Source: an uncultured Chitinophagales bacterium (GTDB lineage: Bacteria > Bacteroidota > Bacteroidia > Chitinophagales > UBA2359). Taken from it: a stretch of DNA of 64,000 nucleotides. Location of the stretch: the NCBI GenBank assembly GCA_937927195.1, contig CALBCY010000094.1, forward strand, positions 1-64,000. The letters run 5' to 3'. The stretch's first letter is position 1. Each line of letters opens with the position of its first letter. Positions 11,788 through 18,030 of the stretch are shown here, piece by piece. The notes under the pieces were generated by a model, which had not been told where the DNA came from, ran no database searches, and saw only the letters and a list, made by a program, of their open reading frames with translations. The position numbers and the translations under genes are program-made.

Positions 11788-12573
11788 TCAGTAATCATCG
11801 TGAGGATAGTGGTTGATCTTTACTTTCCATAAACCTGCTTTTTTTTCCAGCAGGTAATACTGCTGATTAAGTTGGTCATAAATGGTTGGATAATCATTGA
11901 TTTTAGGATCAAACCATCTTAAATACCAATATTCTTTAGAGTTGACCTCGGCTATGTTTTTATCCAATTTGGTAACTTTGCTTTCTATTATTTGATAAGT
12001 AGATGGATTCCATTTGTTGCTAACAATCCATCCTTTAGAGATATGCAATTGGAGGATGTGAAAAATTCGTTTAAATGCAGGACCGTCGGTCGAGAAGTAT
12101 TTTTCAAGTGATTTTGAATCCAGTTCCGGCAATCTTTGATAAGACCTGTATTCTGCAGCGACTGCCTTTTCAACCACTTCTAAAATCGTTTGGTATTCAT
12201 CATTGATGTTGAAATTGACTTCCTGCTTTTTTTGATCGACAAAATCATACCAGTTTATATAATTGCAAAACAAACACAGTTTATTCAGGGTTTTTAATCG
12301 CCTTTGATCCAACTTCGCTGGAATAAGGTATCCATGTTTAAAAATTCGTTCAAGGGTGCTAATACTAATGGTTCTACCAATTTCATTCTTATACCGCTCC
12401 TCAACCAATTTGCTCTGGTCGATTTTGGTTTCGATGAATTTTGACATTAAGCTGAATTGGCTTTGAGTCCAATCTGCTATAATTGGACTGATAGAGTATT
12501 TCTGAAAATCAGCTTTTGCCGATTGAAGCGTTTCAGACTTCAAAAGTTCAAAAAATTCTTTATTTGAGTTCAT
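11788..12573 (-). CDS. Putative HTH-like plus NTF2/IMS-like protein
   Basis: A 261-residue soluble protein. The N-terminal half contains 'IGRTISISTLERIFKHGYL' and 'TLNKLCLFCNYINWYDFV' (about residues 65-115), a helical pattern that recurs at the N-terminus of many Bacteroidetes proteins and may be a DNA-binding domain. The C-terminal 140 residues, with 'KNIAEVNSKEYWYLRWFD', 'YDQLNQQYYLLEKKAGLW' and 'KVKINHY', resemble the NTF2-like fold of IMS/ARC6-type domains. No function is established. Its start lies 14 bp from a cluster of TGTTCAT/ATGAACA half-sites, so autoregulation is plausible but is inference. It converges on the LVIVD gene. Confidence 0.6.
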   Translation of the reverse strand: MNSNKEFFELLKSETLQSAKADFQKYSISPIIADWTQSQFSLMSKFIETKIDQSKLVEERYKNEIGRTISISTLERIFKHGYLIPAKLDQRRLKTLNKLCLFCNYINWYDFVDQKKQEVNFNINDEYQTILEVVEKAVAAEYRSYQRLPELDSKSLEKYFSTDGPAFKRIFHILQLHISKGWIVSNKWNPSTYQIIESKVTKLDKNIAEVNSKEYWYLRWFDPKINDYPTIYDQLNQQYYLLEKKAGLWKVKINHYPHDDY

Positions 12574-12586
12574 TCGTTTTGATCAA

Positions 12587-12634
12587 TTGTTCATAAATTT
12601 AGCTGTTCATAAGTTATGAACAAAATATGAACAG
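12587..12634. promoter_or_regulatory. Operator-like cluster of four half-sites
   Basis: A perfect 19-bp inverted repeat, TGTTCATAA-g-TTATGAACA (12604-12622), is flanked by a further TGTTCATAA to the left (12588-12596) and ATATGAACA to the right (12625-12633). The block sits between the start of the 261-residue protein (leftward) and a rightward promoter whose TTTG element begins at 12641. This is the layout of a regulator-binding site controlling one or both divergent transcripts. Confidence 0.55.
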
Positions 12635-12640
12635 GTACTT

Positions 12641-12673
12641 TTTGTCTAAACATTCTATTAAATATTACTTTCG
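12641..12673 (+). promoter_or_regulatory. Bacteroidetes-type promoter
   Basis: TTTG at 12641-12644, a 21-nt spacer, then TACTTTCG at 12666-12673, one mismatch from TAnnTTTG. The spacing equals that of the promoter at 36178-36210. It directs transcription rightward into a region without a convincing ORF. Confidence 0.5.
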
Positions 12674-12679
12674 TAATCA

Positions 12680-12936
12680 ACGGAAGAATACGTAATTGAA
12701 AATATTAACAATGAATGGCTGTTATAATGGTTTTTAGAGTTTAAAGTCTTCTAATACTTACTTATCAGAATGTTTATACTCATAGCAAATTCACTTACAA
12801 CCCAAAAACTATTAAAGTAGATTTACCCAATAAACGCCGTTAACAGCGGTTTTCAATGTTCCAATGCCATTTAGGAAACCCAATTTCAAGGAACATTTAA
12901 AGCTGCCTCTCTCCCAGGAGGCAGCTTTTTCTTTTT
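12680..12936 (+). ncRNA. Candidate structured small RNA
   Basis: About 250 nt run from the predicted promoter to a strong intrinsic terminator without a credible coding region. The only open frames are three mini-ORFs of 8, 16 and 14 codons (starting at 12712, 12770 and 12857). A stem AATGTTCC (12855-12862) with GGAACATT (12890-12897) lies directly before the terminator hairpin, giving a two-hairpin 3' end as seen in many regulatory RNAs. It does not show tmRNA, RNase P, SRP or 6S hallmarks that I can recognise. The alternative is a long leader with an attenuator for dxr, which begins 171 bp after the terminator. Confidence 0.4.
12899..12936 (+). terminator. Strong rho-independent terminator
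   Basis: 11-bp perfect stem AAAGCTGCCTC (12899-12909) / GAGGCAGCTTT (12918-12928) with an 8-nt loop and a T-rich tail. No annotated gene ends just upstream on this strand. Confidence 0.85.
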
Positions 12937-13107: not shown

Positions 13108-14271
13108 TTGAATAAGAAAAAGATTGCCATTCTCGGTTCCACTGGATCTATTGGAACCCAAGCCCTTGAAGTTATAGAAGAACAAGCTGCCCATTTTGAG
13201 GTAAGCGTCCTTACCGCGAATACCAATTCTGATTTACTAATCGAACAAGCCAAAAAGTTCAATCCCAATGCAGTTGTCATTGTCGATAAGTCCAAGTTTG
13301 CTGCAGTTCGGGATGAATTGTTCGATTTGGGTATTAAAGTCTTTGCTGGTCAAGAAGCTTTAGAGCAAGTTGTTGAAATGGATGGGATAGACATGGTTTT
13401 AACTGCTTTGGTTGGATATTCAGGGCTTAAACCAACAATCAGTGCCATTAAGAGCAGAAAGCCAATAGCTTTAGCGAATAAAGAAACGATGGTTGTTGCT
13501 GGTGAAATGATTACCAAACTGGCAAGAGCAAATGGGGTCAATATTTATCCTGTCGATTCGGAGCATTCTGCTATATTTCAATGTCTGGAGGGAGAATGGG
13601 AAAATCCTGTTGAAAAAATCATTTTGACTGCTTCTGGTGGTCCTTTTCGTGGAATGAAAAGAGCGGAGCTTGAAAAGGTAAGCAAGGCTCAAGCACTTAA
13701 ACATCCAAATTGGGAGATGGGCGCTAAAATAACCATCGATTCTGCTAGTATGATGAACAAAGGCCTTGAAGTTATTGAAGCCAAATGGTTGTTTAATTTA
13801 AAAAGAGAACAAATAGAAGTCATCGTTCATCCTGAATCAATCATCCATTCAATGGTACAGTTTGAAGATTCTTGTATCAAAGCACAAATGGGGCTTCCTG
13901 ATATGAAATTGCCCATACAATATGCACTCGCTTATCCAAAAAGATTAAAATCTAGCTTCAAGAGATTTAACTTTCTCGATTATCCTAGTCTTAACTTTGA
14001 ACAACCAGATTTACAAAACTTTCGTAATTTACAACTGGCTTTTGATGCTTTGGATAAAGGAGGGAACATGCCCTGCATTTTAAATGCAGCGAATGAAATT
14101 GCTGTAGCAGCGTTTTTGAATGATGAAATTGGCTTTTTGCAAATGTCCGATGTTATAGAAAATACCATGCAAAAAGCAGATTTCATAGCAAAACCGAATA
14201 TTGATGATTATCAACTAACTGATGATATGTCCAGAAAATTGACCAGAGAGTTTATCGAAAAAAAATCTTAA
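13108..14271 (+). CDS. dxr: 1-deoxy-D-xylulose-5-phosphate reductoisomerase
   Basis: Converts 1-deoxy-D-xylulose 5-phosphate to 2-C-methyl-D-erythritol 4-phosphate with NADPH and a divalent metal, the first committed step of the MEP isoprenoid pathway in the cytoplasm. The 387-residue protein has the NADPH-binding 'GSTGSIG' (residues 10-16), 'ANKETMVVAGE', the metal and substrate site 'PVDSEHSAIFQCLEG', 'SGGPFRG', 'HPNWEMGAKITIDSASMMNK' and 'VHPESIIHSMVQFEDS'. Length is normal. The start is a TTG at 13108: an in-frame stop lies only a few codons upstream, there is no ATG before the conserved 'KKIAILGSTG', and the TTG start gives the usual N-terminus. It is followed after 3 bp by the double TonB-domain gene, so the two are likely cotranscribed. 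Confidence 0.96.
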   Translation: MNKKKIAILGSTGSIGTQALEVIEEQAAHFEVSVLTANTNSDLLIEQAKKFNPNAVVIVDKSKFAAVRDELFDLGIKVFAGQEALEQVVEMDGIDMVLTALVGYSGLKPTISAIKSRKPIALANKETMVVAGEMITKLARANGVNIYPVDSEHSAIFQCLEGEWENPVEKIILTASGGPFRGMKRAELEKVSKAQALKHPNWEMGAKITIDSASMMNKGLEVIEAKWLFNLKREQIEVIVHPESIIHSMVQFEDSCIKAQMGLPDMKLPIQYALAYPKRLKSSFKRFNFLDYPSLNFEQPDLQNFRNLQLAFDALDKGGNMPCILNAANEIAVAAFLNDEIGFLQMSDVIENTMQKADFIAKPNIDDYQLTDDMSRKLTREFIEKKS

Positions 14272-17816: not shown

Positions 17817-18030
17817 GGCCTTTAGCTTTTGGCCTTTGGCAATTTGTTTTATTTATTTAATTTTGTTAAAATCAATTGCTTTTAAATAAACGCCAAAAGC
17901 TAAAGGCCAAAAGCCAATAGCTTTTAAATCTTTGCCAATAGCTGTTACAAAAACGCCAAAAGCTAAAGGCCAAAAGCCAATAGCTGTTACAAAAAGGCCA
18001 AAAGCCAACAGCTTTTAAAAAAACGCCAAT
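17817..18030. repeat. Tandem and inverted copies of an AAAGGCCAAAAGCC-type repeat
   Basis: A 35-bp stretch occurs identically at 17888-17922 and 17951-17985 (63-bp period), with a partial third copy at 17995-18015. An inverted copy, GGCCTTTAGCTTTTGGC (17817-17833), is perfectly complementary to 17892-17908, so the transcript can form a long hairpin that may terminate the rhodanese gene. A related copy lies at 49148-49186. Confidence 0.75.

Follow-up and report, generated by a model that had tools for sequence, protein, structure and literature searches.

A probable small-RNA gene divergent from a candidate regulator gene, with a shared control region, in an uncultured Chitinophagales bacterium

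Positions 12587-12936 of the window, the 64-kb stretch of DNA analysed here, appear to hold a divergent small-RNA gene and a control region shared with the gene for a 261-residue candidate regulator, which would control both itself and the small-RNA gene; we hold this reading with moderate confidence. An ORF-less unit running from promoter to terminator, divergent from the 261-residue gene and with an operator between the two, had been proposed in a preliminary description of the window, and conservation of this arrangement across genera supports the proposal. The operator half-sites, a 19-bp inverted repeat, the promoter, a stem and the terminator were all found where that description had placed them. 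As judged from the comparisons below, the predicted unit has its promoter in a constant register and a terminator of its own, is linked to the regulator gene family and is independent of dxr, the gene downstream of it.

The operator and the two promoters

Four half-sites lie in the control region, as TGTTCAT at 12588-12594 and 12604-12610 and as ATGAACA at 12616-12622 and 12627-12633. The inner part of the operator is a perfect 19-bp palindrome, TGTTCATAAGTTATGAACA (12604-12622, no strand assigned), conserved in the same-genus genome G001 and degenerate in G041. Perfect inverted repeats with 9-bp arms are by themselves not rare, as the window has about 20 separate examples. Four of the 12 TGTTCAT copies of the window fall within 46 bp, and the 6.3-Mb genome contains no exact match to TGTTCATN5ATGAACA other than the palindrome; this clustering and the genome-unique site are not due to chance.

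We compared the operator across six genomes, namely the window, G001, G318, MAG112 (MAG112/G441), G371 and G041. The deeply conserved core is the direct repeat TGTTCATAnnnTGTTCATAA, read on the minus strand from 12633 to 12615, in which two TGTTCAT half-sites are spaced 11 bp apart. This core is kept in all six genomes with the consensus TGTTCATAnnnTGTTnwTAa, the direct half-sites being one helical turn apart. Of the six, only three (window, G001 and G041) retain the third, inverted half-site needed for the palindrome. The parts of the palindromic operator of the preliminary description thus exist, but what is conserved is a direct repeat. The fourth, outermost TGTTCAT (12588-12594, plus strand) is not conserved in relatives and may be fortuitous. 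In each of the six genomes the operator stands upstream of a homologous regulator gene, even though four of the encoded proteins are only 30-38% identical to that of the window. Between G001 and the window the intergenic region can be convincingly aligned over 29 bp only (90% identity), and these 29 bp are the operator.

To the regulator gene belongs the predicted minus-strand promoter TTTG-N19-TAAATTTA, with its -33 TTTG at 12621-12624, within the operator, and its -7 box at 12594-12601. The divergent promoter, TTTG-N21-TACTTTCG, has its -33 TTTG at 12641-12644 and its -7 box at 12666-12673 on the plus strand. The TAnnTTTG -7 box is the sigma-ABfr consensus (PMC7366714) and is located at -12 to -5 relative to the start (PMC9723704); both transcription starts were inferred from the -7 boxes by this spacing, near 12589 for the regulator gene and at 12678 for the RNA. 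The distance from the TAnnTTTG-type box to where the outer ATGAAC half-site begins is 39, 40, 39, 39, 39 and 38 bp in the window, G001, G318, MAG112, G371 and G041, respectively. Among 100,000 random-window draws none scored as well as this register across the six genomes, the offset range having been fixed after the first cases were seen. In G007, the divergent promoter is absent from the expected place and the promoter of the regulator gene lies elsewhere. In G001 (C765, L003, about 1501-1533), about 24 bases are identical to window 12568-12600, within a gp25-like gene that looks like phage tail or T6SS; this match is probably due to chance.

The half-sites are at about -41 and -30 relative to the predicted regulator start and at about -48 and -59 relative to the predicted RNA start, just upstream of the RNA promoter. 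The core of the operator overlaps the -33 box of the regulator gene's own promoter, the position expected of an autorepressor. Given that operator and gene are conserved together, the 261-residue protein or its dimers may bind the TGTTCAT half-sites and, when bound, would cover its own promoter from about -45 to -15. From these positions, the protein most likely represses its own gene and would probably act as an activator in switching the RNA promoter.

The predicted transcript and its neighbours

The predicted transcript extends over about 259 nt of the plus strand (12678-12936) and ends in an intrinsic terminator (12899-12936, plus strand, -21 kcal/mol) that points away from the regulator gene. 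Immediately upstream of the terminator is a hairpin (12855-12897, plus strand) in which AATGTTCC (12855-12862) pairs with GGAACATT (12890-12897). No ORF of more than 24 residues starts inside the unit, and searches of the window with Rfam at gathering and relaxed thresholds, and of 17 related loci at the gathering threshold, gave no match for it. Together with the promoter, these features indicate a stand-alone, terminator-bounded and probably non-coding transcript. A cis-antisense RNA of the DonS type was considered and rejected, as the predicted RNA start lies about 90 bp beyond the predicted regulator start and the RNA would run away from that gene. The unit could instead be a short mRNA for a regulated peptide of fewer than 25 residues, and small ORFs such as MKILTMNGCYNGF and MFILIANSLTTQKLLK are indeed present; as no ATG ORF of at least 8 residues starts inside the G001 unit and no small peptide or ORF common to the six units was found, we judge this very unlikely.

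The terminator is also a feature of the related loci. In the window, G001, G007, MAG112/G441 and G318, a scan found terminators oriented away from the regulator gene; that of G371, where the automatic gene start is wrong, was read by eye and has the same orientation, and G041 has only a weaker candidate. For comparison, we scanned 62 divergent gene gaps, drawn from the window and the loci together with about 400 kb of sequence from three of the genomes, several of the compared genomes being fragmented and 60-90% complete. Among the 12 gaps adjoining a gene of this family, 8 contain a strong terminator, compared with 3 among the 50 other gaps (Fisher p 2e-5); two of the eight, both in G355, point towards the gene and possibly represent something else. 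One of these two G355 relatives of the protein (L061, L064) has an upstream promoter-like stretch, TTGACA/TATACT, unlike Bacteroidota promoters. G020 and G232 lack the layout; in both, the regulator gene is close behind a neighbour on the same strand.

The preliminary description had offered as an alternative that the unit is a leader with an attenuator for dxr (1-deoxy-D-xylulose 5-phosphate reductoisomerase; 13108-14271, plus strand; Pfam PF02670, PF08436, PF13288), that is, a 5' leader whose terminator would allow occasional read-through into dxr. The unit is upstream of dxr and codirectional with it in the window and in G001, which is fully syntenic (GH3, LVIVD, regulator gene, dxr, TonB). 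However, the unit follows the regulator gene and not dxr. What follows the terminator, with names read from translations rather than by family search, is dxr in both the window and G001; G007 has a TetR-like gene there, MAG112 a methyltransferase, G318 an OmpA-like gene, G371 a peptidase and G041 a convergent gene. Such a unit is missing from the dxr loci that were read in relatives lacking the regulator arrangement, and the two terminators seen at relatives' dxr loci sit behind an upstream codirectional gene. Between terminator and dxr, the window has about 170 nt and G001 about 430 nt, enough for a dxr promoter, the best matches to which reach only 8/10. A dxr leader or riboswitch also found no match among Rfam leaders and no conservation with dxr. 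Because the neighbours differ and dxr relatives without the regulator have no unit, the attenuator reading fails and we consider it highly improbable. Elsewhere in this neighbourhood, a Flavo-1 RNA (RF01705, 51.1 bits) lies between the TonB-like gene and the next one in G001 (L011, 8106-8188), where the window has only 36 bases, and an imperfect tandem repeat of GCCAAAAGCtgtTAaaaAA units with periods of 21, 28 and 63 occupies window positions 17873-18029.

Conservation does not extend to the RNA itself. When the unit was searched for at the DNA level in 41 relatives, the only matches were chance ones of 31-33 bases in coding sequence, and the k-mers common to the six RNA bodies were not in excess over shuffles. 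Even in G001, the syntenic unit is retained while its sequence has turned over. Conservation in relatives, which the preliminary description named as a check, was borne out for the operator (in the six genomes compared) but not for the AATGTTCC/GGAACATT stem, which is not conserved in G001. The structured RNA of that description was likewise not upheld: the z of -3.5 for the whole-unit fold in the window is due to the terminator, without which the fold is ordinary (z -0.98 and -0.32, or about -0.3 to -1.0). By sequence comparison, only the promoter, operator and terminator are conserved with the regulator gene.

This pattern, together with a predicted RNA length that varies from about 92 to 264 nt across the units, is consistent with a model in which nothing but the divergent promoter and the act of transcribing from it is important, through interference, DNA topology or blocking of read-through onto the neighbour, the RNA being a by-product. 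On the other hand, three of six RNA bodies taken without their terminators fold better than shuffles (G001 z -5.0, MAG112 -2.9 and G318 -2.6, compared to -0.3 for the window and +1.0 for G041). In addition, the more distant G342 and G501 keep an RNA-like hairpin at the same divergent position next to another member of the protein family, single-copy, 74 nt long, with a T-run and 84% conserved; in this pair the gene is flanked by an operator-like repeat with 91% conservation, and the stretch between repeat and hairpin cannot be aligned. We therefore regard a by-product RNA as unlikely. The two hairpins (L060 and L102; G342:C52:22599-22675 and G501:C253:16308-16380) possibly form a pseudoknot in which GAAGC pairs with GCTTC across the main stem. 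The divergent regions of G562 and G535 also have a terminator-like hairpin in common; in these two, however, the entire flank shows 82% conservation.

Much of the divergent unit of G001 consists of a hairpin with loop GGGAGCCACAGGCGACTG. It is related to a set of long hairpins in G001 (L011, 5065-5165, and L052-L056) with different stems and a common apical loop, GGGAGCGnAGCGAC, a motif with five copies in G001 and none in the 40 other genomes searched. The G001 unit hairpin was considered as a repeat family and rejected, the genome of the window having no copy.

If the small-RNA gene is real, its product, predicted to span about 12678-12936, would end at its own terminator without being translated and would probably act in trans on mRNAs by base pairing. 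When the RNA was screened for duplexes with 49 gene starts of the window, no clear candidate emerged; dxr was screened from an internal ATG, whereas its real start is TTG.

The 261-residue candidate regulator

The candidate regulator gene (11788-12573, minus strand) was described at first as encoding a putative HTH plus NTF2-like protein. In the AlphaFold model of the protein (pLDDT 87.7), the N-terminal half is all-helical and the C-terminal half NTF2-like. The second part of the assignment is borne out by the fold, as the closest solved folds found by Foldseek for the C-terminal domain are the ARC6/PARC6 intermembrane-space (IMS) domains (E 4e-5). The N-terminal domain, modelled separately, has six helices (pLDDT 93.8) and no fold match among solved PDB structures. 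Because so confident a model matches no solved fold, its HTH identity is taken here as plausible and no further. The protein has no family match in Pfam, NCBIfam, PADLOC or PDB sequences, and five members of the protein family had no Pfam match above threshold, including to models of the NTF2-like fold. A known anti-phage system with an ncRNA was rejected as an identity for the locus, there being no PADLOC protein match, and no relative was found on viral contigs. Relatives of the protein in other Chitinophagales are 30-50% identical and patchily distributed; they were found in 7 of 150 relatives, in 14 of 398 genomes of the order and, for the family of G318, in 15 of 398.

With no recognised DNA-binding fold in the N-terminal domain, the operator could serve another regulator, the 261-residue protein not being its binder. 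The operator site is, however, unique in the genome and tracks this gene across families. The more distant relatives G012 and G016 have a different repeat at the operator position, with the core ATAACTTAT kept in G012 and GGTAATAACTTATTACC present there, the pattern to be expected if binding sites evolve along with their protein. A separate binder thus seems quite unlikely. With the 261-residue protein as the binder, the switch at the RNA promoter would be driven by a signal sensed by the NTF2-like domain.

Relation to known regulator-sRNA pairs

Regulator-sRNA pairs are well known in enterobacteria. In SgrS-SgrR, OxyS-OxyR and GcvB-GcvA, the sRNA gene lies beside the gene of its own regulator and is transcribed divergently from it (PMC4423775), and SgrR activates sgrS (PMC8743547). 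The predicted arrangement in the window resembles these pairs in having an sRNA gene with its own promoter and intrinsic terminator, divergent from the regulator and with control sites between the two, and in its linkage, as the pair stays together in related genomes with different neighbours (G020 and G232 excepted). It differs in that the regulator belongs to an unrelated family with no Pfam or NCBIfam match, the phylum is another one and the RNA is not conserved in sequence between genera. The predicted RNA is also comparable to Bacteroides GibS (PMC7366714) in its TAnnTTTG/TTTG promoter, intrinsic terminator and AT-rich, partly unfolded body; GibS, in contrast, is a trans-acting sRNA with identified targets, and no sequence relation between the two is known. 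While the C-terminal domain of the regulator has the fold of the ARC6/PARC6 IMS domain (NTF2-like superfamily), its identity to these proteins is 12-15%, and it is fused to a helical N-terminal domain in a bacterial protein outside any context of plastid division.

Our literature search for a dedicated regulator-sRNA pair of this kind in Bacteroidota found nothing relevant. More tentatively, and as a possibility we would not call likely, the locus may represent a hitherto undescribed Bacteroidota module of an ARC6-IMS-like sensor regulator and a divergent sRNA gene, in which the control parts are under selection and each genus has a different RNA in place, as though the module exchanged its cargo. 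Bacteroides are without obvious Hfq and ProQ homologues (PMC7366714). If real, the pair would provide a genetic handle for sRNA control in the phylum, with one regulator, one operator and one RNA, and would be a case in which the control parts of an RNA gene have outlived its sequence.
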